In this document: positions 3,001 to 43,660 of the stretch, piece by piece | How positions within the stretch are numbered: position 1 is the stretch's first letter | Layout: each line of letters starts with the position of its first letter | DNA from: a virus | DNA: 51,944 bases | Strand: one strand, 5' to 3' | Virus record (IMG/VR): IMGVR_UViG_3300042988_000794 | Location: 1-51,944 of that record | Translations under genes and position numbers: made by a program | The notes under the pieces: model-generated | What the model was told of the DNA's origin: nothing | Database searches by the model: none | The model's input: the letters and a program-made list of their open reading frames with translations, nothing else

Positions 3001-6000
3001 TAGTCTTCCCTCTTTATTATAACATCACCGATTTTAGGAAATTCATAAGACCCAAACTGAATATCCAAACTATAATTCCATTCCCGAGTTCCATCGGTCT
3101 TCATCGTATCAAATAATGGTTGAAAAACCTTAATGAGCGACGGGTCTTTGGCAACAAGAGTCATGAGTTTATTTCTTCTGGATATATCTATATCAGTGCT
3201 TGATTGTCTAATATTAATATCATAATCATTAGCATTGAAATTGTTGTTTGGGTCTTTATTCAACATCACTTCCACTGATTCAACATAGTCAACCTTTAGC
3301 AATGATACCATATCAGAGTGACTTATCTTTCCGCCAAGGGTATGATTCTTTGGATTGAAAAAATCTTGAACATTCTTTCTCATTTGAGTTTCCACCTGTT
3401 CAGCGGAACCAAATCGTGTCTTTTTATATCTTATTGCCACATCAACCGGAACCCACTTCGCTTCAAGGATTTCATGTTGTGCCCCAAGCATCTTAAATGT
3501 AGACCCATTTAGAGAATTTATCATGGCATCTTTGAGATTCCTGGATATAACATTACTACCGTCTTTATTCAATCCTATGATGAATATATGATTAAACCAG
3601 TAATTTTGATTTCCAGTTATCAATCCTTCACTCTTCGCTTGTTCGTATGATAAAACTTTTGATTCTTGTAGATAATTATTAAAGGTTTCTTTTACATATC
3701 TTTCATAATCATTAAGGGATACATTTCTGTCCTGTCTTATGAAGGAATTGGTTAAATTCTGTCGTATCTCATCTACAGATTCTACTTCATTCCCACCGAA
3801 GGCGTTCTTGTTTTGTATTATTCTAAGATCACCATCCCGCAGTTTTGTTTTTTCAGAATCTATTATACTGGTTATAGTTTTCCCACCTTCAAAATATGCG
3901 GAGGATTTTAGACCAAGAAGAGATACGAAGTTCTTCTCAAATGATATATTAGTAGTATCATTACCCAATATATATTGAGATACAATGATATTATCAGACA
4001 AAACATTCTTAGATATATCACCATCTTTACCTATAGACTTTAACCCCAATATAAATGCTTCTTTGTTCAGAATACTTTCGCCCCAAACTTCACCATCACC
4101 AAATTCTATGATAACTTTTTTATCAGGGTTTACTTTTACAAAGAATACGAGGTTTCCCGGACTAACATCTTCGTCAAATCCAGTTCCAGCACGCTTCCAC
4201 TCATCCCATGTTCCTCTTTCATTCTTAACAAAAACACGAATTCCGTTGGTAGAAATAGTTAAATCATCAACTATAAATCTAACATCCGTTTGAAACTGTC
4301 TGGAAGGATCTAAAGACATCTTCATACCGTTGTTGGAAGAATCTACAACAGTATTTGAATTTATATAAGTGAAACAAACATTTCCCTGAATTAAGTTTGG
4401 AATTTCAAAAGTTTCAGGAACATTGGAAAAGTATAAACCTGGAATCTGCAATTCATTAGAAGATTGACCAGCGAAATCTATTTCTCCGTGCTTTTGGAAT
4501 AGATAATCTTCACTGGAGTCTACGTACCAATCAACGGTTACGATTTCCTTTGTTTGCTCCGCTTTTATAAAGAATCCGTTTGATGTTTTGTTACTGTAGA
4601 AAACGTTCACATTTTTATTTGGTATTAACTGAATAGCATAATTACGCTCATTCATCGGAACATCAAGAGTAATCTCTACACCATTTTCAGCGTCGGATGG
4701 GTTTACAACTATTGTACCACGCTGTCTATAAGCGGATTCCACTTCAACTGGAACCATATCACCACCGAAATAGTTAAATATACTCCAACTTATCTTACCA
4801 GTGAATTCTTTCTCGGTTCTTATTTTAAACCCATATGGGGTTGGATCTTCATACCAAACTTGGATATTTTCATTTGGCGTCAATTGAACCATGTAATTAG
4901 ATGATGAACCTTGTAAATTCAAAGCAGACGGTATAGATTCGTTGAATTCAACCTGAACTTCTTTAAAGTTACCCTCTATAGTTCTCGTGGCGGTCCAAGC
5001 AACATACCCCTCAAATTGAGATTCCGGTTCTATGTAAATGTCAAAACCTTTATCGGTTTTATTTGCATACCATGTTCTAACATTTCCTTCGGGAGTTATG
5101 TTGGTTATATACGATACAATATCTTCATTTTCAGATTTAACAAATGGCGAGTCAAATATTATCCTTTGTAACCGTTCGCCCCTTTGAAAATATAATCTTC
5201 CAGCTTTCTGCTCAGATGTTTTTATCTTTGACTTCTCAACAAACTTCATGTCACCAAATCTCTTACCAGAGGTTGATTCCAATGTCCTTGTGTTTGTTTG
5301 AGGATCGGTATACTTTGTGTTTATTTTGGCAATTGTTATTTGATTGGATATTGGTTCTTGAGAAGTTATCAACAATTGGGCGCCATAATTTGTTTCAGGT
5401 GATAACTCGTCCGTTATTACTAAATGAACATTATATTCTTCAACACCAGTATCCCAAAAATCAACTGGTATTTTCTGACTATATATTACTCCAGAATTGA
5501 ATGTAAATATTTTACCATTTACCAATACTGATAAAGGAGCCGAATTTCCATCCTTATTAACAACTAATTTCATTCTTTCTACAGAATTATCTCTACCAGG
5601 AATAGGGTCATATTCAATACGGCAACTTTCCAGATTTCTCAATCCAGTAACACCGACATAGAATCTATTATGTGACCGCATCTCATCTATCTTTAAACTA
5701 TAAAACGCTTCAGTGGAATCTGTTGGTTCCAAAGTAAAGGTACATATAACATCATCCTGTTTATCGTTTATAACATTGGATGATTCCGCTATTGTCAAAT
5801 ATGGTGACGATGTTGATGTATCAAGATTAAATACAAGAGCATACGATGTATTTGGGACAAGAGTAGAACCGTATTCTTGGGTACGAATGGTCTTGTTAAA
5901 AGGTTGTCCAACGCTTTGGTTGTCTGACTTATTTGTTAACGGATAGTTTTCAGTATCAAACCCACGATAATTATCCGATGAATTCTTTTTTATTATTGAT

Positions 6001-9984: not shown

Positions 9985-10638
9985 ATGGCATACTATGATC
10001 ACATATCATGTTCAAGTGAATGGCAGAAAAAACATAACTACGACAATATTGTGCGTGATGATGCGTATTGCGTGAATGGAATACCGGAACCTTCATGGGT
10101 TCTTGATGTAGGGGCAAACTTCGGTGTTTTTTCGGCAAGATGTCGTCAGTTATTCGGTAAAAATCCTTTTATTCTGGCGATAGAGGGCGATTCTGATACT
10201 TATAAGCATTTGCTAATAAATTCATTACGGTACGGGTTTGATACCATTTTGGCGCCTATTGGTTCGCTGGACGGTAAATCTGTGAAAACATATGGTAAAA
10301 ACAATACAAACAATCCTGGAAGTTGGCAAGTAAAAGAACAAGAAGGACCGTGTAACGGTGGGTGTACCAGGACACTGGAAAGTTTAATTATAGAATACGG
10401 TGTGAATCTTAGCAAGCGTGGGATACTAAAAATTGACTGTGAAGGGTGTGAAAGATATATTATATTGAACCTGGATTTAATGCGCTGCATGTGGCAGATA
10501 TCCATGGAGTATCATTTATTTGACGAGGAAATAAAAGATATAGCCTTATGGTTTCATAACGAGATACAGAAAACACACGATGTTATTAGACAGGGAAATG
10601 GTAAGATATACGAGTGCGTGTATCGTAAAAGAACTTGA
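9985..10638 (+). CDS. FkbM-family SAM-dependent methyltransferase
   Basis: 217 aa, ATG with a GGAGGA site just upstream. SAM motif I is VLDVGANFGVFS (39-50), with an acidic residue after the second strand (AIEGDSD, about 66-71) and the family's LKIDCEGCE motif (148-156). FkbM enzymes are O-methyltransferases acting on sugars or polyketides. It is one of only two plus-strand genes and lies next to the secreted host-type gene, opposite to the neighbouring structural genes. With sugar-modifying genes converging from the other side (APS kinase, GT25), a role in capping or modifying a glycan is plausible. Substrate cannot be told from sequence. Confidence 0.82.
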   Translation: MAYYDHISCSSEWQKKHNYDNIVRDDAYCVNGIPEPSWVLDVGANFGVFSARCRQLFGKNPFILAIEGDSDTYKHLLINSLRYGFDTILAPIGSLDGKSVKTYGKNNTNNPGSWQVKEQEGPCNGGCTRTLESLIIEYGVNLSKRGILKIDCEGCERYIILNLDLMRCMWQISMEYHLFDEEIKDIALWFHNEIQKTHDVIRQGNGKIYECVYRKRT

Positions 10639-10728: not shown

Positions 10729-11328
10729 ATGAATCGTGTGACTGCTACTATCCTGTCCCTTGCCCTGGCTGCTTCGGCTGGCTGGGCTGCCGATCCTCCT
10801 GAGAAGAAGGATGTCCCCCTGCCTCCAGCCGTGGTGAATGCCGAGAATGCTGCCCTAGCTGCCGCAGACAAGGCTCGCAGCGTCTATATCAAGGCTATAG
10901 AAGCCGAGGTAAAGAAGCTACAGGCGGCTCTGGAGAAGGAGAAGCAGGCTGCTACCAAGGCAGGAAATCTTGAGCTTGCGCTGGCTATCAAGGCGAAGCA
11001 GGAAGCGATGACTGTGGATGCTGTAGTGGCGAAGGGGGCGGAGAGCGGTGGGGATTTGCTTGGGGAGGGGAAGGTGGATGTGGCTAAGGTGATTGTGGGG
11101 AAGTGGGGAAGTGATGGTGTTGTTAGATGGGAATTCTTTTCGGATGGAACAGGAAAGCATTTCAATGATAAATTAGTATTTCAAATTAAATATTCCAAAA
11201 TAGATGGTTCTGACGATTCATATAGCATCATACAAGGAGTTAGTAAACGCGAAATTGTTATTACAGGAAAACAGTCCGCTAAGGAAATACTCGGTGGAAC
11301 GACACGAATTCTAGAACCAATGAAGTGA
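10729..11328 (+). CDS. Exported host-type protein with chimeric base composition
   Basis: 199 aa. A clear signal peptide (MNRVTATILSLALAASAGWA, cleavage near AWA-A/D) is followed by a Pro/Lys linker and an Ala/Lys/Glu helix (about 38-90) of the type 'AxxAGNLELALAIKAKQEAM'. Then comes a C-terminal small beta domain starting VGKWGSDGVVRWEFFSDGTG. I associate this architecture (signal, 'GNLxxAxAIKA' helix, 'GxW..G..W.F..DGT' domain) with many paralogous secreted proteins of Planctomycetes and Verrucomicrobia. The first 370 nt are about 58-63% GC by direct counting of sampled lines, while 11161-11280 is only 23-37%, close to phage DNA. The gene converges on the APS kinase gene with a 2-nt gap. 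It is probably a recently captured or recombined host gene; role in infection unknown. Confidence 0.75.
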   Translation: MNRVTATILSLALAASAGWAADPPEKKDVPLPPAVVNAENAALAAADKARSVYIKAIEAEVKKLQAALEKEKQAATKAGNLELALAIKAKQEAMTVDAVVAKGAESGGDLLGEGKVDVAKVIVGKWGSDGVVRWEFFSDGTGKHFNDKLVFQIKYSKIDGSDDSYSIIQGVSKREIVITGKQSAKEILGGTTRILEPMK

Positions 11329-11330
11329 AA

Positions 11331-11852
11331 TCATATATTGTAATCTGTAAATTCTTCGGGGAATGCTTTCAACATACACTTTATTGATTCGTCAATTGTC
11401 ATAATTTCAGTATCAATTGTCAAATCCACGGAAGTTGGTATATCAAATACAGAACCAATTCCGGTAAAATTTTGTATTTCCCCGTTAATTGCCTTTTTAT
11501 ATAACCCCTTAACATCACGGCGAATGCATTCTTCTACGGAACAATTTAGATAACAAAGTAATAAAGAGTCGCCAAGTATATCACGCAACATATTTCTCTG
11601 AGAATCTAATGGGGTTATAAATGAGCATATGGTAGAAACTCCGCTACGATTTGCCAACAAACATATTTCGGCACATCTTCTTATATTCTCCATTCTATCA
11701 CCTGGGGAAAAGCCAAGATCCTTACTTATACCATTTCTAAATTCATCACCATCCAATAACATGTATTCCGTGAGATAGTTTTTTTTGATGTAATTAGCAA
11801 TAGTGGTTTTTCCAGATCCCGATAAACCCATAATCCATATGTTAGTAGGCAT
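11331..11852 (-). CDS. cysC: Adenylylsulfate (APS) kinase
   Basis: 173 aa. It phosphorylates APS with ATP to give PAPS, the sulfate donor. P-loop GLSGSGKT at residues 9-16; LDGDEFRNGISKDLGFS and DRMENIRR (33-59) form the APS-binding region; FITPLDSQRNMLRDIL and VKGLYKKA (114-121), then FTGIGSVFDIP, all match the CysC family. Length is slightly below the usual 200 aa but no motif is missing. It directly follows the GT25 gene (stop and start adjacent) and is the last gene of the run that contains a sulfotransferase, so the PAPS is probably made for sulfation rather than for sulfur assimilation. APS must come from the host ATP sulfurylase, as none is seen here. Confidence 0.92.
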   Translation of the reverse strand: MPTNIWIMGLSGSGKTTIANYIKKNYLTEYMLLDGDEFRNGISKDLGFSPGDRMENIRRCAEICLLANRSGVSTICSFITPLDSQRNMLRDILGDSLLLCYLNCSVEECIRRDVKGLYKKAINGEIQNFTGIGSVFDIPTSVDLTIDTEIMTIDESIKCMLKAFPEEFTDYNI

Positions 11853-12509: not shown

Positions 12510-13309
12510 AATATATTTACCTTATTCCAAGTAACATGAATGTTTGCTGTATTTGGATTAATCAAAAGACTGAAACAAGATAAATTTGATCTGGTATGAA
12601 CTATACTACCACATTCAGCTAAAAGATAGCAATCTAGCATTGCCCCCCATAACTTTTCATCTTCAGTAAAATTCTTGCTCATATGAATAGCTATATCTGT
12701 TCCTCTTCGAATTCTTTTAATATCTTGTTTGATTATTGGTACTCCAAGATTGGCTTTTTCAATATACTCAACAAAATCTACTTCATCGGTTGCCAGAAAT
12801 ATCTTATTATAATTACCTAGTTGCGATTTAACTCCCGATAAAAATAAATCATAGTCAATATGCTTTCTCCCATAATACTCTTTATACTTGTCAGTTCCCC
12901 TATAATGTAAGCCGAGGGTTCTATTATCAATCCCAAGTTGCCGAACCTCATCTTTTAAACGACCACTGAAAATACTGTTTTTTATAAAATACTTATTTAA
13001 AGTATCTGAATACATTCGGCGGTTTGAGTTAATTAATTCAGTTGCTCCAGTAGTATTTGAATACCATCTAGTAGGAGCATCATCTGGAACTTTAGGATTA
13101 ACAAAAAATATGTCCCATATATTACTTCCATCTGCTTTATATAGTAAGCTGTCCAACTCGACATGAGCCTTGACGCTGCCGCGATTGCGATGTGCAATAT
13201 TAAATCTTTTTAAGATTCCTTGTAAGAAACAAAAAAGCCCAGATTTTAAAAATCCCGGTGTACCGTCTGGATTTTTTTTCTTCCGAATATTTATTTCAAA
13301 CGGTGTCAT
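12506..13309 (-). CDS. GT23-type alpha-1,6-fucosyltransferase-like (NodZ/FUT8-like)
   Basis: 267 aa from the ATG at 13309; an upstream in-frame TTG at 13318 is a less likely start. The GDP-fucose-binding signature of GT23/O-FucT enzymes is present: LGLHYRGTDK (about 132-141; NodZ/FUT8 have H-V-R-R-x-D/N), followed by KIFLATDE and a C-terminal LDCYLLAECGSIVHTRSNLS block equivalent to FUT8's 'LDIHFLSQADFLVCTFSS'. The first Arg of the HxRR pair is kept and the second is Gly. These enzymes move fucose from GDP-fucose to a GlcNAc-type acceptor. It lies between the sulfotransferase gene (14-nt overlap) and the GT25 gene (4-nt overlap). Fucose specificity is inference; other GDP-sugars are possible. 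Confidence 0.7.
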   Translation of the reverse strand: MTPFEINIRKKKNPDGTPGFLKSGLFCFLQGILKRFNIAHRNRGSVKAHVELDSLLYKADGSNIWDIFFVNPKVPDDAPTRWYSNTTGATELINSNRRMYSDTLNKYFIKNSIFSGRLKDEVRQLGIDNRTLGLHYRGTDKYKEYYGRKHIDYDLFLSGVKSQLGNYNKIFLATDEVDFVEYIEKANLGVPIIKQDIKRIRRGTDIAIHMSKNFTEDEKLWGAMLDCYLLAECGSIVHTRSNLSCFSLLINPNTANIHVTWNKVNIL

Positions 13310-13889
13310 ATATTTCAAAGTCCGTCTTATATATTTTATGAATTTTACTTTTCTGTTCCTCTGTTAAGTCACTAACCTTGAATATCTGTTTAGAGACATT
13401 GAATTTATCTATTTCCAAAGGAAAGTCCATGTTATATCTTTCGTTAATCTTTACAACAATATCTGAAAGTGGCTTGTCATATCTATGTATATAATCATGA
13501 TTGAGTAATCTTATATGTTTAGTCTGATCGCGAAATATAAGATGGTTTCTTCTAATATCTGGTAAGTTTATAATCAAATCCATATCCAATGCGACATTCT
13601 TCTTGGTTTCATGTAGTCCATCTATAAAAGTCTTTTTCGTATCTGGAAAGGTATGTAAGTGATTGATTGCGCTTACATATCTCTCGTATGGGTGGCGAAG
13701 TATAGTAAATATAAAATTATCTGGTGATTCAAATCTTTTATTATCTTTTTGTAAATTGTGGCGAGTATTCTTAAAATCTATATCCGAGTAATTTCCAGCA
13801 TCATGAAATTTATCAAGATTATTTCTTAGATGGCGGGCAATTGCCCTACCACCAGTTTTTGGAATATGGTTAAATAGAATTATATTCAT
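13296..13889 (-). CDS. PAPS-dependent sulfotransferase
   Basis: 197 aa. The 5'-phosphosulfate-binding loop is HIPKTGGRAI (8-17) and the 3'-phosphate-binding motif is FTILRHPYERYVSAI (61-75, Arg65 and Ser73), both as in the carbohydrate sulfotransferase family. The remainder is alpha-helical and shorter than average, but the two PAPS sites and the intervening region are complete. It transfers sulfate from PAPS to a hydroxyl or amine, usually of a sugar. Encoded four genes upstream of the APS kinase in the same transcript, it provides the consumer for the PAPS. ATG at 13889 with an AAGGAAA site. Confidence 0.88.
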   Translation of the reverse strand: MNIILFNHIPKTGGRAIARHLRNNLDKFHDAGNYSDIDFKNTRHNLQKDNKRFESPDNFIFTILRHPYERYVSAINHLHTFPDTKKTFIDGLHETKKNVALDMDLIINLPDIRRNHLIFRDQTKHIRLLNHDYIHRYDKPLSDIVVKINERYNMDFPLEIDKFNVSKQIFKVSDLTEEQKSKIHKIYKTDFEIYDTV

Positions 13890-22070: not shown

Positions 22071-22847
22071 TCACATGTTGAAAACAAATTTAAAATCTTT
22101 ATTTTTTAAATATTCTTGAGCGGTCATCATACTCTTAGGAGTACCGAGGTCATGCCAAAAGTTTTTCACGAAAGAAGACCGTAGGGATTTTGAAGAAATA
22201 AGTGTATTATGAATATCAACTATTTCCAACTCTTTTCTATCCGAAACAACCAGTGTATCCGCTATATCATACACGCACTTATCAAATAGATAAAGACCGG
22301 TTGATGCATAATTCGATTTTGGGACTTTTGGTTTCTCTTCAATGTCAATAACTTCGTTATTATCCATATTGATATGAGCAACACCAAATCTCTCAGGGTC
22401 GTCAACTTTTTTAAGAAATATGTGCCCCTTATAGTCACTATTCTTAAATTGCGATATCTCATATTCAAAAGAATCTTCAAAAAAGTTATCACCAAGTATA
22501 ACTGCAAACTTTTCATCGCCAGTAAAAACCTTGGCCAACTTAAGAGCACCTGCAATCCCAACTGGTCGTAGAGGGTCGTGCATATTCTGTATTTTATATG
22601 TTATGTCAACAGAATCTCCAAACTTTCTACCATCTCCAACCATATCAACCATCATACCCGCTGCTTCATCGGAAGTTATTATTAGTATTTCATTTATTCC
22701 TGATTTTATAAGCGTATTTAGCGCAAAATAAATCATTGGAATAGAACCAATACCGTCTATATAAACGGGCATTAAATGTTTATTAATAACTTTAGAAGCT
22801 GGCATCATTCGTTTGGCAAATCCGCCTGCTAATATAACCCCTCGCAT
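22071..22847 (-). CDS. Sugar-1-phosphate nucleotidyltransferase (RmlA-like)
   Basis: 258 aa. GVILAGGFAKRMMPASKVINK (nucleotide-binding loop and the activating Arg/Lys), MPVYIDGIGSIPMIYFALNTL, VILGDNFFED (metal site), RFGVAHINMDNN, EEKPKVPKSNYASTGLYLFD and FWHDLGTP place it in the glucose-1-phosphate thymidylyl-/uridylyltransferase family. It makes an NDP-sugar from NTP and a hexose-1-phosphate. The loop is FAKRM instead of the usual G-T-R-L, so the nucleotide preference may differ. It is about 4 kb upstream of the glycosyltransferase cassette on the same strand and would supply donor sugar. An extended -10 promoter precedes it. Confidence 0.85.
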   Translation of the reverse strand: MRGVILAGGFAKRMMPASKVINKHLMPVYIDGIGSIPMIYFALNTLIKSGINEILIITSDEAAGMMVDMVGDGRKFGDSVDITYKIQNMHDPLRPVGIAGALKLAKVFTGDEKFAVILGDNFFEDSFEYEISQFKNSDYKGHIFLKKVDDPERFGVAHINMDNNEVIDIEEKPKVPKSNYASTGLYLFDKCVYDIADTLVVSDRKELEIVDIHNTLISSKSLRSSFVKNFWHDLGTPKSMMTAQEYLKNKDFKFVFNM

Positions 22848-32621: not shown

Positions 32622-33602
32622 TTAATTTATTGATATTAACTCGCAAGACAGAAGTGCGGAAAGGTCTTTTCCACCTGCATAGGAGATACTTGACCTTAAA
32701 TCTTCTTGCAACTCTATTAATAAATCTTCCATATCACCCTTATAATCAAGGAATAACTTTTTTCCCTCAACATGGGTATATTTACCCTTGTTATGCTCTG
32801 AAGCGGACCCATAGTAAACACATTTCTTATGCCCATCAATTTCTATTATCTCACCCGCTGACTGGTTGTACCCGCAGAAAATAGAACCCGCCATGACCAT
32901 AGTAGCACCGCATGCTATTGCCTTGGCAATATCCCCATGTTCACGAATTCCACCATCAGCAATAACAGGCTTCTTAGCAGCAGATACACACTCTTGTAAA
33001 CATGATATAGTGGGTCTTGTGAATCCCGTCTTAACCTTTGTGGTACATGCCAAACCGGGACCTATGAAGAGTTTGCAACAATCGGCGCCCCATCTCTCTA
33101 TTTCCTGGACCGCTTCCGCTACTGCCATATTCCCAACAATCAGAAATGTTTTTGGTAGGCGATCCTTTATATACTTTATCATCTTCTCTGCCTTCGGGGA
33201 CCAAGCAGATGCGATATCAAGTGTTATGTAATCAGGTTTACGGTTTGCGGATACTATGGAATTAATTTGTTTGTATGAATCGTCATTCACACCTATGCTT
33301 ATAGATGTATAGTACCCATAGGACTCCATCTCATCAATAAACTTAACAGGATCGGTACCAAAACGATGCATGACATAGAACCAACCCTTGGATGCCAAAT
33401 ATTTACAGGTTTCTATATTAACAACGGACGCCATGTTGGCGGGACATACTGGCATCTTAAAACTTCTTGGACCAAATTCAACAGAAGTATCACACTGACT
33501 TCGACTCCCAACTATTCCTTTTTTCCTGGAAAGAAGGTAAACATCACCGTAATTATATTCTCTGCGAACGCTTATAGATTTACTTGTATGAGATTTTTCC
33601 AC
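32622..33602 (-). CDS. guaC: GMP reductase / IMP dehydrogenase family enzyme
   Basis: 326 aa from GTG at 33602 with AAGGAG 7 nt upstream. MPVCPANMASV (49-59), YVMHRFG, DIASAW, IVGNMAVAEAV, WGADCCKLFIGPGLACTTKV (catalytic Cys186), VIADGGIREHGDIAKAIACG, YGSASEHN and VEGKK all fit GMP reductase, which converts GMP to IMP using NADPH. No CBS domains are present, and the length fits GuaC (about 345 aa) rather than IMP dehydrogenase. In a phage it would shift degraded host GMP into IMP and then adenine nucleotides, fitting an AT-rich genome. It ends its transcript at a terminator. The loop has Leu for the usual Ser (GPGLACTT). Confidence 0.9.
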   Translation of the reverse strand: MEKSHTSKSISVRREYNYGDVYLLSRKKGIVGSRSQCDTSVEFGPRSFKMPVCPANMASVVNIETCKYLASKGWFYVMHRFGTDPVKFIDEMESYGYYTSISIGVNDDSYKQINSIVSANRKPDYITLDIASAWSPKAEKMIKYIKDRLPKTFLIVGNMAVAEAVQEIERWGADCCKLFIGPGLACTTKVKTGFTRPTISCLQECVSAAKKPVIADGGIREHGDIAKAIACGATMVMAGSIFCGYNQSAGEIIEIDGHKKCVYYGSASEHNKGKYTHVEGKKLFLDYKGDMEDLLIELQEDLRSSISYAGGKDLSALLSCELISIN

Positions 33603-36578: not shown

Positions 36579-37118
36579 TCAAATCATTAACATTATTAAT
36601 ACTTGAACAATACCTATTAATCCACCCAAATAAAAACCCAATATTTCTATGGTTTTAAATTCGTTATTTGCAACTTTATAAACCATATCTTCAAGTTTAT
36701 CTAAGTCAAAATTTTGTATTTTTTCTTTTACCATATTTCTTATAAACATATCTGTCTTTTGGGAAATCTGACTATCATTTCCCATTTCCTTCAAATACTC
36801 ATTAACAACTTCCCCAACAAAATCACCCAATATCGGGATGTTTATGAAATTTGTTATTGTTTCCGATATCTTATTACGACCACCAGCACCATTCATCTTT
36901 TTTGTTATATTTTCATAATTAACAAGTTCGGTTGATACTATATCGGCAATTCTTTCCGCAAGTTCTTCTTTTTTCTTCGGAATGAGTCCTTGCATACACA
37001 TGAATGGTTTTCTTGGGTAAAATAGCATTTTTATAGCAACAACATTTGTCACCCAACCTATAAACGCTGATATAAGAGGGATTGCCACACATTTGGCAAT
37101 TAGTACATAATCTATCAT
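36579..37118 (-). CDS. DUF445 (UPF0754-type) membrane protein
   Basis: 179 aa. The N-terminal membrane segment and motif AFIGWVTNVVAIKMLFYPRKP, then GLIPKKKEELAERIADIVS, and the C-terminal EILGFYLGGLIGIVQVLI are the family hallmarks of DUF445, here in a compact form with one transmembrane helix at each end. Bacterial members have a role that is not well defined; in this phage it is flanked by other membrane-anchored coiled-coil proteins with 4-nt overlap, suggesting a shared envelope complex. Confident on family, not on function. Confidence 0.85.
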   Translation of the reverse strand: MIDYVLIAKCVAIPLISAFIGWVTNVVAIKMLFYPRKPFMCMQGLIPKKKEELAERIADIVSTELVNYENITKKMNGAGGRNKISETITNFINIPILGDFVGEVVNEYLKEMGNDSQISQKTDMFIRNMVKEKIQNFDLDKLEDMVYKVANNEFKTIEILGFYLGGLIGIVQVLIMLMI

Positions 37119-37594
37119 AGTGTCATCTGTTCTTTAATAATATTTCTTTTTAAATTGGTAGAATTGATATCTTCCATTATTTGTTTAAAAACAAATTCTT
37201 CAAATGAATTCAACAACTCATTAAATTCTTCGATATATGCATTTGCCCGTATAACGGTTTCGGTATTTTTAGATTTTATGACTATTAATAAACTTTCAAC
37301 ATACCGACAAAAAGATTCGTCCATGAATGTAAAAGTTTTAACAACTCTATCATCTTTTTTATCGTCTTGGATTGATGCCGATATAACCATTTTATATCTC
37401 TCTGTTATGAAAAACCATCTTTCAACAGTATCGGCGTGTTGTTTTGGTATATCACCACCAACAAACTTCTGAACAGATTCTATATTCTGAAATCTAGAAT
37501 CCTCTTGTATTTTAGCGGCATCATTGCTAAACGCTCTTCTGAACGCCGATTCCAAGTAGTCACTCCACCTAATGAGAGGGTTTCTTTCAGTCAT
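37115..37594 (-). CDS. Unknown helical protein
   Basis: 159 aa, soluble, helical, with a Trp-rich start (NPLIRWSDYLESAFRRAF) and a charged end (VFKQIMEDINSTNLKRN). No transmembrane segment and no recognised family. It overlaps the DUF445 gene (4 nt) and the upstream coiled-coil gene (8 nt), so it is translated with them and is likely a cytoplasmic partner of that set. Confidence 0.5.
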   Translation of the reverse strand: MTERNPLIRWSDYLESAFRRAFSNDAAKIQEDSRFQNIESVQKFVGGDIPKQHADTVERWFFITERYKMVISASIQDDKKDDRVVKTFTFMDESFCRYVESLLIVIKSKNTETVIRANAYIEEFNELLNSFEEFVFKQIMEDINSTNLKRNIIKEQMTL

Positions 37595-38120
37595 CGCTAT
37601 TTTTTTCCTTAATTGAATCTATGAACGACTTCATTGAAAGATACCTAACATTATTCTTATCACTTGTAGAAATTTTTGAATTCATATCGTCAATGGAGGA
37701 AGACAGTATAAGTATCCTAATCTCACGTAACTGCTCTTTCTGCTGCTCCAATTTTATCCTCGCAACATTATAATCTTCTTGAATCTTATTTTTGGTCAAA
37801 TCTAAAAACTCAATATCTTTATCTTTTAAACCACTCTTAGATAATCTTTCTTTCTCTATGTCACATTCTACAGACATTGCCTTCAAAGACGAAATTACCT
37901 TTATAAGCTTATGGATAGATCTCTCAGTTTTAATAAGTTCAAACTTCAATTCACTATGAGCATCGGATGTTCCAATATATTTTCTACTTCTTAGGAACTT
38001 CTCACGAACCCAAAATAATCCATCATCAATTTTATCTTTATTATTCTTGTATAACTTTTGCGGAATCTCAAGAATAACACCAGCCGCACCTAGAAGAGCA
38101 ATTGATATAAATGTTAACAT
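37587..38120 (-). CDS. Membrane-anchored coiled-coil protein
   Basis: 177 aa. One N-terminal transmembrane helix (about 2-19, LTFISIALLGAAGVILEI), then a basic region and a long coiled coil (about 60-145). Its start shares one base with the stop of the previous gene (TAATG). The design is the same as that of its neighbour at 38120-38791, but sequence similarity by eye is low. Function unknown. Confidence 0.55.
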   Translation of the reverse strand: MLTFISIALLGAAGVILEIPQKLYKNNKDKIDDGLFWVREKFLRSRKYIGTSDAHSELKFELIKTERSIHKLIKVISSLKAMSVECDIEKERLSKSGLKDKDIEFLDLTKNKIQEDYNVARIKLEQQKEQLREIRILILSSSIDDMNSKISTSDKNNVRYLSMKSFIDSIKEKNSDD

Positions 38121-38791
38121 TAATTTCCTTTTTGTTGCTCTTTAAACTTACGGTATTTCTCTTTCATCTCAAACCTATTAACAATATTATTATTAACAGA
38201 CAAATCACTATGACCAGTATATCTTGAAACAACATCGGTTGTCATGGTCCCATGACCCATAACCGATATCTTATCTAGGTTTTTCTGATATTCTTCTATT
38301 TCATTGTTATGTTTGAATACTATTTGTGCTATCTGTGCCTGTGCCAATCTCTCTTTAAGGGTCGTTCTCTCATATAACTTTAGAGATTCTTCTCTGTTTT
38401 TGATAAGTGATTCTTTTTGTGTTATACCTTGCAAAGAAATAGTATGCTGGGACCTTTTTATGCCCAATTCTTGTTTATAGGACTCTCGCTCTTCCGTCGA
38501 TAAAGATTCATCATTACACGCGAAATCTAAAAATTCTATTTCGTCTTCCAACTTTTTAAGAAGAGATTTATCAACTGATAAACTTGCTTTATCGTTTCTC
38601 AGAGTTTGTTTCTCAGATTCATACTCCGCCCTTATGTTATCTTCGGCACTCCCCAATATCATACTCTGACCGAATTTTGTTCGTGTGAATCGGTTTTTCA
38701 CAGTATTCGTAACCGCTCTAACTGGAGCGGTGTTTCTCGCAAACCAAGCCGCCAAAGCACCACCACCGACTAAAAGCGTCTCAAGTATCAT
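38120..38791 (-). CDS. Membrane-anchored coiled-coil protein
   Basis: 223 aa. Hydrophobic N-terminus (MILETLLVGGGALAAWFARN), a basic segment (RFTRTKFGQSM), then about 100 residues of charged coiled coil (DKASLSVDKSLLKKLEDEIE onward), a short loop (GHGTMTTDVVSRYTGHSDLS) and a basic helical end. It overlaps the synthetase-like gene by 4 nt and the next gene by 1 nt, and is the first of the membrane/coiled-coil set. No family recognised. Confidence 0.55.
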   Translation of the reverse strand: MILETLLVGGGALAAWFARNTAPVRAVTNTVKNRFTRTKFGQSMILGSAEDNIRAEYESEKQTLRNDKASLSVDKSLLKKLEDEIEFLDFACNDESLSTEERESYKQELGIKRSQHTISLQGITQKESLIKNREESLKLYERTTLKERLAQAQIAQIVFKHNNEIEEYQKNLDKISVMGHGTMTTDVVSRYTGHSDLSVNNNIVNRFEMKEKYRKFKEQQKGN

Positions 38792-39480
38792 ATCTCCCCC
38801 TTTATTTTATTTTCTATTATATCTATTATATCGTATAAATATTTTTTTTCAAAATTTAAAATATTAAATCTATTGCCACTTCCATCACTTTTACTAATCT
38901 TTATATCATTATCTTTTATTAAATTAAAATTAATAACTTTATAGTTGCATTTAAGATAATCAAGTATCATAAATTGCATTTTACTTATGTCTCTATATTC
39001 ACCACTATTAATATCCCACTCCATCCCCCTACATATAACACTCTCCGACCAAATAGCATCTTCGTAGAAGAAAAACGGAATAAATTCTAGAAAAGATAAT
39101 GTATCTCTCGGAATCTCTTTTTTCATATCCGTAAGAATATACTTTTTATCAAACTTTATACCAATATCATCAAATAAAGCAGTCGTCTTATTTACATACT
39201 CCGAAACCAAATTACTCGGTCTTAACATTTCATATATACCACACCCAGGCTTATGAGAAGTTATATCATTTTCCCATCTACTATCCTTATTTGGATATTT
39301 TGTATGATTATTAGCATTAACAACATAGGTGTCATCATATCTTAGATGAAATTCCAATTTGTTTCTTTTTGCATATTCTCTAGTGTAGAGAAGACCGTAT
39401 AAATGACCTATATGAAATATAGGTTCCGGATTTACTGATAGAGCAAATCGTGCTCTTTTACTTTTTATCAAATAATTCAT
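38788..39480 (-). CDS. Truncated glutamyl-tRNA-synthetase-like (class I) protein
   Basis: 230 aa. RFALSVNPEPIFHIGHLYGL (11-30) contains an exact HIGH motif (23-26) in the GluRS/GlnRS context (RFAPSPTG..HIGH), followed by EFHLRYDDT in place of the family's 'ILRIEDTD'. VICRGMEWDINSGEYRDI corresponds to the 'VIRGEDhxxNTPRQ' block, and KISKSDG (194-200) is the KMSKS loop. The protein ends 30 residues later, so there is no anticodon-binding domain, as in GluQ-RS (YadB), but the zinc cysteines of YadB are not obvious. It would activate glutamate or another amino acid with ATP. Its acceptor is unknown. It follows a glycosyltransferase-like gene (23-nt overlap), without a good ribosome site. Family fairly sure; substrate unknown. 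Confidence 0.72.
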   Translation of the reverse strand: MNYLIKSKRARFALSVNPEPIFHIGHLYGLLYTREYAKRNKLEFHLRYDDTYVVNANNHTKYPNKDSRWENDITSHKPGCGIYEMLRPSNLVSEYVNKTTALFDDIGIKFDKKYILTDMKKEIPRDTLSFLEFIPFFFYEDAIWSESVICRGMEWDINSGEYRDISKMQFMILDYLKCNYKVINFNLIKDNDIKISKSDGSGNRFNILNFEKKYLYDIIDIIENKIKGEI

Positions 39481-40342
39481 TTTGAAAGGGAGTATTAAAT
39501 AATAGCGGCATATCGACAGTCCACTGAGTAGAGTAAATGGGACTGAATTCTTCGTTATTTCTGTATTGTTTTACTTTATAGAATAAAAAATTATACTGCC
39601 TAAAGCACAAATCATTCATAAAATTTGGAGAATTATATTTATTGATATACCAAGTTAAACAATCGTTATATGAATTTAAATCGTTAAATATGGAATAATA
39701 ATCAACAGTTATATGGTGAGTTTTTTTAACATCACCCTTATGCTCACACATATCATAAAAACTGCGAAGTTTCATATATCTAGGGTTATGTGACAAATAA
39801 TAAGAAATATCACCAAGTCCAGAGTCAACCTTAACACTGTCTGAAATCCGTTTACCAGACCATGTTTTAGTGTCCATTATATTTAAATGACTCAGCATGT
39901 TAATAACATTTACATAATAGAGATAGTTTTCTCCGGTATACCAGCGATAATATCCATGTTGTTGGTCCCAAATTTTGCCGACAAAGGTTGTATATTCATC
40001 TTTAATACTTTCAACTGTTGAAATAAAGTCACCATTAACAAAACAATCGCTATGTAATATATATAAATTATCTATACCATTATCCAAACAGTAATTTACA
40101 GCATTCGATTGACCGCTATCCTCATATTGGCCACCTTCTATAACTACTATCTCATATCTATCTTTAAATATATCCCTAATAACATTAAAAAATTTATTCT
40201 CATCGACTTTATTATATCTATTATCATTACTTGATATTATTATCGTTCCATTACCACTTATATTTTTATATAAATGATACAAACAACGAAGGAGCATGAG
40301 TTGCGTCCCGCTGATATAGTTTATAAGTATAGCATTAGTCAT
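39458..40342 (-). CDS. GT-A glycosyltransferase-like protein
   Basis: 294 aa. N-terminal ILINYISGTQLMLLRCLYHLY, strands IIISSNDNRYNK and EIVVIEGGQYED, SGQSNAVNYCLD, then DNLYILHSDCFVNGDFIS (about 92-109) with an H-S-D-C where GT-A enzymes have a DxD after the hydrophobic strand. The layout (Rossmann half, then acidic strand end, then helical C-terminus) suggests a family 2-like nucleotide-sugar transferase or a degenerate relative. It overlaps both neighbours (8 and 23 nt). Moderate confidence. Confidence 0.5.
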   Translation of the reverse strand: MTNAILINYISGTQLMLLRCLYHLYKNISGNGTIIISSNDNRYNKVDENKFFNVIRDIFKDRYEIVVIEGGQYEDSGQSNAVNYCLDNGIDNLYILHSDCFVNGDFISTVESIKDEYTTFVGKIWDQQHGYYRWYTGENYLYYVNVINMLSHLNIMDTKTWSGKRISDSVKVDSGLGDISYYLSHNPRYMKLRSFYDMCEHKGDVKKTHHITVDYYSIFNDLNSYNDCLTWYINKYNSPNFMNDLCFRQYNFLFYKVKQYRNNEEFSPIYSTQWTVDMPLLFNTPFQNELFDKK

Positions 40343-41219
40343 TGAATAATAATTGTATAGATTTTTCTATTTCTTGGAATGTCGGATGTCTATTGTTAAA
40401 AAAATGGTGTTCATTTGCTATTATACCATCGAATCCATTTTCTTTCAATCTAATGCCGTTACCGCTGACCAAACCTAATGCACCCTCAACCCCACCTAAT
40501 ATCTTTGATCCATATTTTTGCTTCATAGTTTTACACCAATTAGACCCATCTGAGGTGTTGTTCATTAATAATATGTCACACTTTAACTTTTTAACATATT
40601 CTTCAAAAATACCACTGGAATGTATGTTTGAACAATTAAAGGATTTATCAATTCTAAAAGATATCGGTATTACATATTTATTATCAAATCTATCTAAGAA
40701 ATCAAATCTACTCATGAAATTTTGAAATATTATATCTTGATACTTTAACCACTCATCGGTATCTTTTTTATTAAAAACATTCATACAGTATGGTAATGAT
40801 ATATTATTCTGCCCTAAAAAAATCTTACTGTATTTGTCTGTAAACGGATTAATATGGAATTCGGAACCATCTGTTACTTTTTCATGCTTTATCATTACAT
40901 ACCAAGGTATATCAGTAACTATATATTCATCTATTAAATTTTTATATTCGTCGAAATCTTCACATACTTTTTCTTCGAATATTTTTTCCATACCAAATGA
41001 AAATTGGTTTGTATCGGTGAATACTTCATTATTTTTGGTTTCATTAAGGATATGTGGGAAAAGAGAAGTTACTCTAAATCCAAAATCTTTACATTTTTTA
41101 TAGAAATCTTTATCTTTCTTTTTCCAAATGCTAATATTGGTAACTTTGAATTTTTTTAACAATTCTAATTCACGGTTATCAATTTCATTAACTCCCCACA
41201 CATGAATATGGAATAGCAT
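40335..41219 (-). CDS. Unknown protein, possible TIM-barrel-like
   Basis: 294 aa with alternating strands and helices (MLFHIHVWGVNEID, FKVTNISIWKKKDKDFY, FGFRVTSLFPHIL, YVIPISFRID, CDILLMNNTSDG, KILGGVEGALGLVSGNGIRL, GFDGIIANEHHFF), which suggests a beta/alpha barrel. I do not recognise a family or a catalytic motif. It overlaps the GT-like gene by 8 nt and starts 20 nt after a TATAAATG box. Grouped with the GT-like and GluRS-like genes it may act on the same substrate. Confidence 0.45.
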   Translation of the reverse strand: MLFHIHVWGVNEIDNRELELLKKFKVTNISIWKKKDKDFYKKCKDFGFRVTSLFPHILNETKNNEVFTDTNQFSFGMEKIFEEKVCEDFDEYKNLIDEYIVTDIPWYVMIKHEKVTDGSEFHINPFTDKYSKIFLGQNNISLPYCMNVFNKKDTDEWLKYQDIIFQNFMSRFDFLDRFDNKYVIPISFRIDKSFNCSNIHSSGIFEEYVKKLKCDILLMNNTSDGSNWCKTMKQKYGSKILGGVEGALGLVSGNGIRLKENGFDGIIANEHHFFNNRHPTFQEIEKSIQLLFND

Positions 41220-41239: not shown

Positions 41240-41247
41240 CATTTATA
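41240..41247 (-). promoter_or_regulatory. Weak late promoter candidate TATAAATG
   Basis: TATAAATG on the minus strand overlaps the stop of the polyserine gene and lies 20 nt before the next ATG. One mismatch to the late consensus. Similar boxes occur inside coding regions, so this is tentative. Confidence 0.25.
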
Positions 41248-43660
41248 TCCATTCAACATATGAATATTGACATACATTCGTTACCGGATCCAGAGGACCA
41301 GTTCTACAGTAACCGTACCACTCTTTTCCAGAAGGATTTGGAACTCCAATATAATCAACCATATCATCACCGCGGTCACAATTACAATCACCGTTAGATC
41401 CACTACTGTTCCAATCTGTTGCTAAAGGTCCCCCTAGTTCGGGAGGGGTGCATGGTGGACCACCTACCGAACTGCTTGAAGAACTGCTGCTACTGCTACT
41501 GCTGCTGCTTGAAGAACTACTGCTGCTACTGCTGCTAGAGGAACTACTGCTGCTAGAGGAACTGCTGCTACTGCTGCTTGAAGAACTACTGCTGCTAGAA
41601 GAACTACTGCTAGAGGAACTGCTGCTGCTAGAAGAACTACTGCTACTGCTGCTACTGCTGCTAGAAGAACTACTGCTGCTAGAGGAACTGCTGCTAGAAG
41701 AACTACTGCTACTGCTGCTAGAGGAACTGCTGCTAGAAGAACTACTGCTGCTAGAAGAACTACTGCTAGAGGAACTGCTGCTGCTTGAAGAACTACTGCT
41801 ACTGCTGCTACTGCTGCTAGAAGAACTACTGCTACTGCTGCTAGAAGAACTACTGCTGCTAGAGGAACTGCTGCTTGAAGAACTACTGCTGCTGCTACTG
41901 CTGCTGCTTGAAGAACTACTGCTGCTACTGCTGCTAGAGGAACTACTGCTGCTAGAGGAACTGCTGCTTGAAGAACTACTGCTGCTACTGCTGCTAGAAG
42001 AACTACTGCTGCTAGAGGAACTGCTGCTTGAAGAACTACTGCTACTGCTGCTAGAGGAACTGCTGCTAGAAGAACTACTGCTACTGCTGCTACTGCTGCT
42101 AGAAGAACTACTGCTGCTGCTAGAAGAACTGTTATGTTGACTTGATGAAGAACTGCTGCTACTTGAACTACTGCTAGAGGAGCTACTGGATGAACTGCTG
42201 CTACTAGAACTGCTACTGCTACTAGAACTGCTACTGCTGCTTGAACTGCTACTTGAACTACTGCTAGAGGAACTGCTGCTAGAAGAAGAACTACTTGAAG
42301 ATGACGAACTAGATGGGGTAACTCCTGGTATCTGATCCGGGAAATCACAAAAACAGCACGATTCATCGGATTCAAAAACTAAATTACCATGTTCATTTAT
42401 GCCAATATTAAAACAATCCCCAGGTTTTACGCGCCTAATCCAATGTATATAGTGCGCCTTTCCATATATTTTATTATACCATCTCGTGGTTGTTCTGGTA
42501 TACCACCCAACATCTTTAAATCTCGGATGATCCGAAAATGATGAAACTTCCTTATAGTAATCGTTATATAAAGCGTCATCCTCACCAATATACTTAGCAC
42601 CTGAAGAGTTTTCACTCAGCACATCTTCCAATAAATGGACCTTCCACTTATCCTCACCAACTTCAACAACAGTCCCCTCCCACGATATAATGTTGTCAGG
42701 GGTGTAAACATCCATCGGACCGCGCACATTGTCAACCGGAAATCTCCAAGCAATAAGTTTGATATCCTTGGTATATTCCGCTTTTATTTCCTTACCCTCT
42801 TTTACGTCTTTTGGAATATCCGCTTCAGGTGAATAATAACTTCCATCTATAGCAAAACTGGAAACTTTACAATCCTTATTCGTATAGTCGGTATTCTTAT
42901 CAATACTTGTCGATAAATTATAGGAAAAGAATATAGTTCCAAATGACCATTTATATCTATCACCCAAATCCCAATCAAACTTATTATCATTTGTATAACC
43001 AATACTAACATTATTTCCAATGTTGTATATATTAAATTTTCCGTTATACCATGTATCTACATTTAAACTATCCTGGTGGAGAACGGGGACACCAACCCCC
43101 GTTGTCTTCATCATCATATTCAAACCATTTATTTTTATAAACTTATCGTCAAATATATTCTGCTCAACGAATAGAACTTGATACTTATTATCAGCGTCGT
43201 TTGGCAACCTCGGGGGCGCTGGGGAGTATGGTACTCTTTCCGGACCAGGGGATTTTGTTACTATACCAGAGTCAGGTCTTCTACTATTAACCACATTTGC
43301 AAAAAGAAATATTTTGCTACACTCTTTAACTTCATCGCTATAAAAGTGTGAAGGGTCTATTATATATGGATTTGAGTATATGAATTCCTGTGTTGGATTT
43401 AGTGGGTTGCCAAGAAATATCGGCGCTATTACACCAGTTGCCAATGTTGGATGGTCTGAAACCGGAACATTGTATCGTGTTGTTGTTTTTATACCTTCAT
43501 TAATTGGAATATCATCACTCGGTAACGCTTTGGCATTCTTAAATTCCAAATCTACCTGGGGGTAAGGTAAAACGGTTTTAATCGGGGTGGAACTTACTCC
43601 CCCCGATCCATACTTTGTAACCCTTTCTATCTTACGTGTTCCTCTTCCCCGTAGTGACAT
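41243..43660 (-). CDS. Structural-type protein with 282-codon polyserine tract
   Basis: 805 aa. Residues 1-449 are a folded, aromatic-rich domain with no recognised family (segments such as YNLSTSIDKNTDYTNKDCK, VEVGEDKWKVHLLED, RVKPGDCFNIGINEHGNLVF), rather like the body of a virion decoration or fibre protein. Residues 450-731 are serine except for one QHN. Residues 732-805 form a Cys-rich C-terminal domain (PPCTPPELGG, GDCNCDRGDD, GYCRTGPL, VTNVCQYSY). Two domains joined by a very long serine linker may be extracellular or virion-exposed, and serine is a common O-glycosylation site. It follows the 117-aa gene by 8 nt in the structural transcript. Function not known. Confidence 0.7.
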   Translation of the reverse strand: MSLRGRGTRKIERVTKYGSGGVSSTPIKTVLPYPQVDLEFKNAKALPSDDIPINEGIKTTTRYNVPVSDHPTLATGVIAPIFLGNPLNPTQEFIYSNPYIIDPSHFYSDEVKECSKIFLFANVVNSRRPDSGIVTKSPGPERVPYSPAPPRLPNDADNKYQVLFVEQNIFDDKFIKINGLNMMMKTTGVGVPVLHQDSLNVDTWYNGKFNIYNIGNNVSIGYTNDNKFDWDLGDRYKWSFGTIFFSYNLSTSIDKNTDYTNKDCKVSSFAIDGSYYSPEADIPKDVKEGKEIKAEYTKDIKLIAWRFPVDNVRGPMDVYTPDNIISWEGTVVEVGEDKWKVHLLEDVLSENSSGAKYIGEDDALYNDYYKEVSSFSDHPRFKDVGWYTRTTTRWYNKIYGKAHYIHWIRRVKPGDCFNIGINEHGNLVFESDESCCFCDFPDQIPGVTPSSSSSSSSSSSSSSSSSSSSSSSSSSSSSSSSSSSSSSSSSSSSSSSSSSSSSSSSSSQHNSSSSSSSSSSSSSSSSSSSSSSSSSSSSSSSSSSSSSSSSSSSSSSSSSSSSSSSSSSSSSSSSSSSSSSSSSSSSSSSSSSSSSSSSSSSSSSSSSSSSSSSSSSSSSSSSSSSSSSSSSSSSSSSSSSSSSSSSSSSSSSSSSSSSSSSSSSSSSSSSSSSSSSSSSSSSSSSSSSSSSSSSSSSSSSSSSSSSSSSSSSSSSSSSSSSSSSSSSSSSSVGGPPCTPPELGGPLATDWNSSGSNGDCNCDRGDDMVDYIGVPNPSGKEWYGYCRTGPLDPVTNVCQYSYVEWI
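41468..42313 (-). repeat. Polyserine-coding tract (846 bp)
   Basis: 282 codons, 279 of them serine, interrupted once by QHN near 42130. The codons switch between AGC/AGT and TCT/TCC/TCA in short blocks such as AGC-AGC-AGT-AGT-TCT-TCT, rather than a single repeated triplet. Because two codon families are mixed, selection or recombination of larger units must act, not simple triplet slippage. Other frames (Leu/Glu on plus, Ala/Val on minus) also stay open and are shadows. Confidence 0.93.

Follow-up and report, generated by a model that had tools for sequence, protein, structure and literature searches.

Gene content of the window

The window, by which we mean the whole stretch of DNA analysed here, is a virus record of 51,944 bases, possibly a fragment. 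It carries T4-like tail genes, including one for a 1202-aa protein whose matches are T4-like baseplate wedge subunits. An open reading frame (ORF) on its minus strand encodes a small protein resembling the catalytic core of glutamyl-tRNA synthetase (GluRS), referred to below as mini-GluRS, in the following setting:

36579..38791, minus strand: four overlapping genes of 223, 177, 159 and 179 aa, the last with DUF445 (ORFs; Pfam)
38788..39480, minus strand: mini-GluRS-like protein, 230 aa (ORF; Pfam; family profile, E 6e-7; spacing of 100, defined below)
39458..40342, minus strand: GT-A-like gene, 294 aa (motif reading only: ILHSDCF, DxD-like)
40335..41219, minus strand: GH42-like partner, 294 aa (BLASTP, shuffles, profile)
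41243..43660, minus strand: protein whose serine homopolymer runs to well over 200 residues, 805 aa (ORF)

The mini-GluRS ORF is intact from ATG to stop, and the plus-strand reading of 38788-39480 is riddled with stop codons. The product carries the HIGH (H23-I24-G25-H26) and KISKS (K194-I195-S196-K197-S198) motifs at the residues given in the initial annotation, and it ends at residue 230 with no anticodon-binding domain, as had also been stated. Profile PF19269, which represents that domain, had no match in the window and detected the domain in 11 of 14 control genomes; on this empty search we rejected a GluRS whose C-terminal part is encoded separately in the window. No tRNA was detected in the window, consistent with the earlier remark that the gene does not lie beside tRNA genes, and Rfam gave no match there.

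In the direction of reading, the gene for the poly-Ser protein is followed by the GH42-like, GT-A-like and mini-GluRS genes, the last three of which overlap. The overlaps with mini-GluRS reported initially are real: its start is covered by 23 nt of the GT-A-like gene, and the first downstream gene shares 4 nt with it, the four downstream genes being apparently co-transcribed. The GH42-like and GT-A-like genes overlap by 8 nt. The poly-Ser gene lies 23 nt upstream of this cassette on the same strand; the N-terminal part of its product had no Pfam match, and the protein might, we infer, possibly be a substrate of O-glycosylation. The adjacency and overlap of the GT-A-like gene thus hold as annotated, but its identification as a glycosyltransferase found no database or profile support: family searches gave no convincing match and the GT2 profile built from the relatives described below gave none. 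Since that profile comparison yielded nothing, we do not claim common ancestry of this gene and the GT2-type genes of the relatives.

Several other genes of the window are of note:

9985-10638, plus strand: FkbM methyltransferase
10729-11328, plus strand: alanine-rich, secreted-looking protein, whose style suggested a planctomycete-type gene of the putative host
11331-11852, minus strand: adenylylsulfate kinase (TIGR00455, 155 bits, above the cut-off)
13296-13889, minus strand: Sulfotransfer_2 family protein, less than 2 kb from the adenylylsulfate kinase gene
22071-22847, minus strand: RmlA-like sugar nucleotidylyltransferase, under the equivalog cut-off
32622-33602, minus strand: GMP reductase, above its cut-off

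The adenylylsulfate kinase and Sulfotransfer_2 genes, which are accompanied by GT25 and fucosyltransferase-like genes, possibly represent a phage sulfation route for glycans.

A family of stand-alone GluRS-like proteins in uncultured phages

Taken alone, the window protein matches the class I E/Q catalytic domain PF00749 over residues 11-53 with 25 bits (cut-off 23.4; E 1e-5). The same match scores 20.8 bits in a six-frame genome search, slightly below the cut-off, so the sequence evidence from this protein by itself is thin. A search of PDB sequences gave E values of about 1, PHROG had no match for it, and the NCBIfam scan returned for it just a weak GluRS match (E 0.022), TIGR03838 (queuosine_YadB) not being matched.

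Single-protein searches with the whole window protein and with parts of it found no relatives, and the family came to light with degenerate DNA patterns derived from the motifs. The first such pattern (HxGH, 19 residues, LRx[DE]DT) led to L006, a phage contig of 5.1 kb on which portal- and terminase-like genes accompany the gene for a stand-alone relative of 241 aa that matches PF00749 at 4e-22. Later alignment-based and pattern searches added L057, L139 and others. Altogether, 14 distinct stand-alone relatives of about 226-252 aa were found on other IMG/VR contigs (L006, L057, L139, L140, L142, L143, L144, L146, L147, L149, L150, L152, L153 and L154, with L147 and L150 represented by partial sequences), after removal of the duplicates L056 (L006), L145 (L057), L151 (L139), L141 and L148 (L140) and L155 (L152). 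A survey of 50,697 phage records contained no family member, only matches of the GluRS, GlnRS or GluQ-RS type and one ORF of a huge phage. The family pattern had no match in 392 genomes of Planctomycetota, the sole phylum sampled, and in a scan of genome contigs the checked loci were longer GluRS or GlnRS genes, contig-edge fragments aside.

Among close pairs of relatives, dN/dS ranges from 0.05 to 0.17, and these proteins are under strong purifying selection. The window member is very divergent, with 20-27% identity to the others; its length (230 aa) and its spacing of 100 fit the definition of the family (stand-alone, about 226-252 aa, spacing 98-106). When the family profile was run against the 212 ORFs of the window, the mini-GluRS ORF scored E 6e-7 and the runner-up 0.66. 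By sequence comparison, the kinship of the window protein with the synthetases is firm once the relatives are included. The GluRS-like catalytic core proposed initially is thus upheld by PF00749, the family profile and a GluRS/GlnRS-type N-terminus. Lack of a close class I synthetase match had been named as grounds for dropping that proposal; Pfam gave a match to the class I E/Q domain, and the family-profile and fold searches gave matches to GluRS.

Loss of both tRNA-binding domains

A profile built from 12 members had 44 matches among PDB sequences, all of them to GluRS, GlnRS or GluQ-RS. The best GluRS scored E 3.3e-23, no GlnRS did better than 3e-15, and YadB came last at 1e-9. The match to GluRS falls into two blocks (3-101 and 129-207) that flank CP1, the acceptor-stem domain, and the GluRS segment of approximately 90 residues between them is reduced to about 27 residues in the phage family. 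Measured from the second Asp of the [DE]D motif to the Arg of [IV]RG, the number of intervening residues is 98-106 in the 12 members and 143-169 in 28 homologues from cells (two GluQ-RS, with 143 and 168, and 26 GluRS and GlnRS, with 153-169). The family has lost both the anticodon-binding domain and CP1.

CP1, whose absence from the window protein the initial annotation had missed, is gone there as well: the spacing is 100 (D50 to R151), and the protein therefore has the deletion that defines the family. As read from the alignment, this shared deletion is independent of the N-terminal similarity of the window protein to the family. The default alignment left the middle of the protein ambiguous (SESVI versus SEKVI); we chose to fit its CRG onto the VIRG of GluRS because the 42-sequence alignment gives this fit and because the resulting spacing matches the family.

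The residues of Thermus thermophilus GluRS (1g59) at positions Arg5, Glu41, Arg205, Tyr187 and Asn191 are those that hold glutamate. The first three correspond to R, D/E and R in 12 of the 12 aligned members, and the 42-sequence alignment retains them in the window protein too (R11, D49 and R151, where D49/D50 form the [DE]D motif and R151 takes the position of Arg205), in a region for which the model of the window protein has low confidence. The Tyr187 position is not kept in the family, and that of Asn191 is occupied by Lys (Arg in L153) or, in the window, by Phe. Because these two positions have changed, the enzyme may bind something other than plain glutamate.

Structures were modelled for one relative and for the window protein. 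The AlphaFold2 model of the L057 protein (pLDDT 88.5, pTM 0.86) has GluRS as its top fold matches (E 2.2e-13, TMq up to 0.73), with the GluQ-RS fold 4a91 in rank 24. The model of the window protein, made from 13 sequences, has a pLDDT of 64.1, with residues 127-171 below 50, and its best fold matches are likewise GluRS (E 1.3e-3 and above, about 115 residues aligned). At the level of the family, the modelling supports a placement of HIGH and KISKS within the active site.

Relationship to GluQ-RS and other synthetase-derived enzymes

GluQ-RS (YadB) glutamylates queuosine-34 of tRNA-Asp. It is a known stand-alone paralogue of the GluRS core that lacks the anticodon domain (PMC9437257), features it shares with the phage family, whereas it retains CP1 (spacing 143-168 versus 98-106), appears to belong to another clade and has a different gene context. 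In a FastTree phylogeny of 42 sequences, the phage family forms one clade (0.98) outside GluQ-RS, with modest backbone support, and the window protein is its long-branch sister (0.67). GluQ-RS, named initially as a similar truncated relative, is not supported as the nearest one by the profile scores (3e-23 for GluRS versus 1e-9 for YadB), by the tree, in which the family falls outside it, or by its retention of CP1; membership in GluQ-RS was rejected on CP1, the profile scores and NCBIfam.

GluRS itself (PF00749, GltX) has the same Rossmann core, the HIGH and KMSKS motifs and, by alignment, the Arg5, Glu41 and Arg205 positions, and provides the top sequence and fold matches; the phage family differs from it by lacking CP1 and the anticodon domain, by its altered Tyr187 and Asn191 positions and by its location among sugar genes. 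The 634-kb uncultured phage LR745206.1 encodes a 285-aa GluRS-like ORF (L055, 4995-5852) in which most of CP1 is gone and the spacing is 90. Like the family proteins, it is a GluRS core from a phage in which the middle segment is short, but it has canonical APSPTG and KLSKR motifs, groups with Escherichia coli GluRS in the tree and has no sugar cassette seen alongside. It apparently represents a second, independent loss of CP1 in a phage.

For the mechanism that we propose below, the closest parallel is MshC, the mycothiol cysteine ligase, an enzyme that derives from CysRS and selects cysteine via zinc. MshC activates cysteine as an adenylate and then, independently of tRNA, joins it to GlcN-Ins (PMC2922099; PMC9736012). 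A class I synthetase core, tRNA-free activation of an amino acid and an amino-sugar acceptor would thus be common to both, whereas the best matches of the phage family are GluRS and GlnRS, and we claim no membership by sequence. For synthetase-like proteins of non-ribosomal systems, gene context has led to the prediction that they attach amino acids to other groups, in one case to a cell-surface sugar (PMC2922099); they come from other synthetase families and from cellular genomes, and phages are unmentioned in that paper.

No description of a GluRS-like phage family was found in the literature searched, which is weak evidence as most subscription journals and preprints lay outside its coverage. 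We regard both the domain deletion and the genetic context of this synthetase-derived enzyme as new.

Sugar-related genes beside mini-GluRS

The neighbours of mini-GluRS in the relatives were classified with small HMMs, each built from two to four relatives, so that the counts include the source loci. A GT2-type gene lies beside or near mini-GluRS in 9 of the 14 distinct loci, a gene for a GH42-like TIM-barrel protein also in 9, and one or both of them in 11; the neighbours in L144 and L154 showed no link to GH or GT profiles. The most complete arrangement is that of L149, where Pfam reads GT4, GT2 (4e-12), mini-GluRS, two GH42-like genes, an ABC ATPase (2e-30), a BPD_transp_2 permease (4e-30) and Peripla_BP_4 (3e-33). 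Read by eye, L057 and L142 have the same layout except for GT4, which the available stretch does not show; in L140, L143 and L152 the genes are GT2, mini-GluRS, permease, binding lipoprotein and GH42-like, and in L153 mini-GluRS is followed by the permease. The sugar transporter found in several loci is a CUT2-type ABC system. A search of all 14 loci for tRNAs found none.

In L149, L142 and L057, and also in L140, L143, L152 and L153, the sugar ABC transporter genes adjoin capsid or tail-connector genes. In L147, an upstream gene encodes a major head protein, according to a weak PHROG match.

In the GH42-like proteins, E150 is invariant in 11 of 11 relatives. The L139 protein (4571-5617, plus strand) has Gln where Glu is expected near the C-terminal GL motif. 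Because the second expected Glu is not invariant, some of these proteins may not be ordinary hydrolases. A pattern for the GH42-like C-terminus had its sole real match in L006, hits L156-L158 being without a GH match.

The window partner (40335..41219) aligns with the partner in L006, whose gene overlaps the L006 mini-GluRS by 4 nt, at a BLASTP E of 4e-7, over the C-terminal 73 or so residues alone. The alignment score is 80 against a maximum of 67 among 2000 shuffles, and among the 212 window ORFs this one ranks top against the GH profile (E 0.0047). These weak matches suggest that it is a distant relative of the GH42-like TIM-barrel proteins, in which case the arrangement in the window is similar to that in the relatives. 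A shared neighbourhood is an association and says nothing of the identity of an acceptor.

Possible functions of the phage enzyme

If the mini-GluRS acted on tRNA in the manner of GluQ-RS, it would glutamylate queuosine or another anticodon base, and the glycosyltransferase might act on queuosine too. Such a stand-alone GluRS-core paralogue already exists (PMC9437257) and the catalytic fold is shared (4a91), but GluQ-RS keeps CP1 (143 and 168), YadB comes last in the profile search (1e-9), the phage family falls, with modest support, outside the GluQ-RS clade, no queuosine genes were recognised in the window, and the gene is surrounded by those for sugar handling and a sugar transporter; we consider this reading improbable. 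That the protein is a minimal GluRS, still charging a host or phage tRNA or a tRNA-like RNA and so sustaining translation, seems distinctly improbable, with CP1 and the anticodon domain both missing, no tRNA in the window or the 14 loci and no separately encoded C-terminal GluRS domain in the window, even though the catalytic motifs are intact, some bacterial GluRS function without the zinc-binding part of CP1 (PMC4381286) and a GluRS-like ORF poor in CP1 occurs in a huge phage (L055).

HUP-fold enzymes include cytidylyl- and adenylyltransferases, and the core could have taken on the adenylation of a compound that is not an amino acid, such as a sugar acid or a sugar, as an activated donor for the glycosyltransferase. 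The sugar neighbourhood and the altered Tyr187 and Asn191 positions, the latter now Lys or Arg, would fit such a role; conservation of the residues aligned with R5, E41 and R205 of the amino-acid pocket and retention of a KMSKS-type loop make it unlikely. The divergence of the window member and the mixed function of phage cargo islands would agree with a catalytically silent GluRS mimic, a binding protein for host control or anti-defence with sugar genes as mere cargo-region neighbours, but strong purifying selection, the retained catalytic residues and a neighbour pattern that recurs across independent loci speak against it, and we consider the mimic improbable. As for a chance occurrence of HIGH and KISKS in an ORF that is no relative of synthetases, the E of about 1 in the solo PDB search and the absence of a PHROG match count in its favour; the Pfam match (25 bits), GluRS as top fold matches even for a poor model and the GH42-like partner two genes away count against it, and it was rejected as very improbable on the family-profile score (6e-7) and the identical CP1-deletion spacing.

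We favour tRNA-independent activation of glutamate or a similar compound, with the aminoacyl group passed to a sugar acceptor; by analogy with MshC this has, in our view, a little under an even chance for the substrate and acceptor that we infer. By alignment, ATP and amino-acid sites are kept and both tRNA-binding domains are lost; the simplest reading is therefore that the adenylate would be offered to something small or exposed, and the recurring GT, GH42-like and sugar-import genes suggest a sugar. The mini-GluRS would spend ATP to turn L-glutamate, or a close dicarboxylate amino acid, into its adenylate and would then pass the acyl group on to an acceptor that is small or bound to a glycan. 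The likeliest acceptor would be a sugar made, imported or transferred by the neighbour enzymes, reacting through an amino or hydroxyl group. For the phage in the window, the end product would probably be an aminoacylated sugar decoration of the virion or of a host-surface component. Of the earlier suggestion of a transfer step in decoration, the catalytic core and a likely non-tRNA or non-standard acceptor stand, and the link to sugars is seen in 11 of the 14 loci.

Implications

Non-translation paralogues of the synthetases are few, and for GluRS a 2022 review lists GluQ-RS as the sole one (PMC9437257). By sequence, the window protein belongs, as a divergent member, to a phage family of catalytic cores derived from GluRS that has apparently not been described before. 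Such a family, devoid of tRNA-binding parts, strongly selected and placed among sugar genes, would extend these paralogues by a new acceptor chemistry and give phages another way of decorating glycans. More tentatively, the GluRS-derived ligase, the GT2-type and GH42-like genes and, sometimes, the sugar importer may form a cassette that is mobile among uncultured phages and joins an amino acid to a sugar of virion or host glycans. If true, GluRS would for the first time have given rise to a ligase of amino acids to sugars, and phages would have put a translation enzyme to a second use without tRNA. The role of truncated viral synthetases becomes testable with a few small purified proteins.
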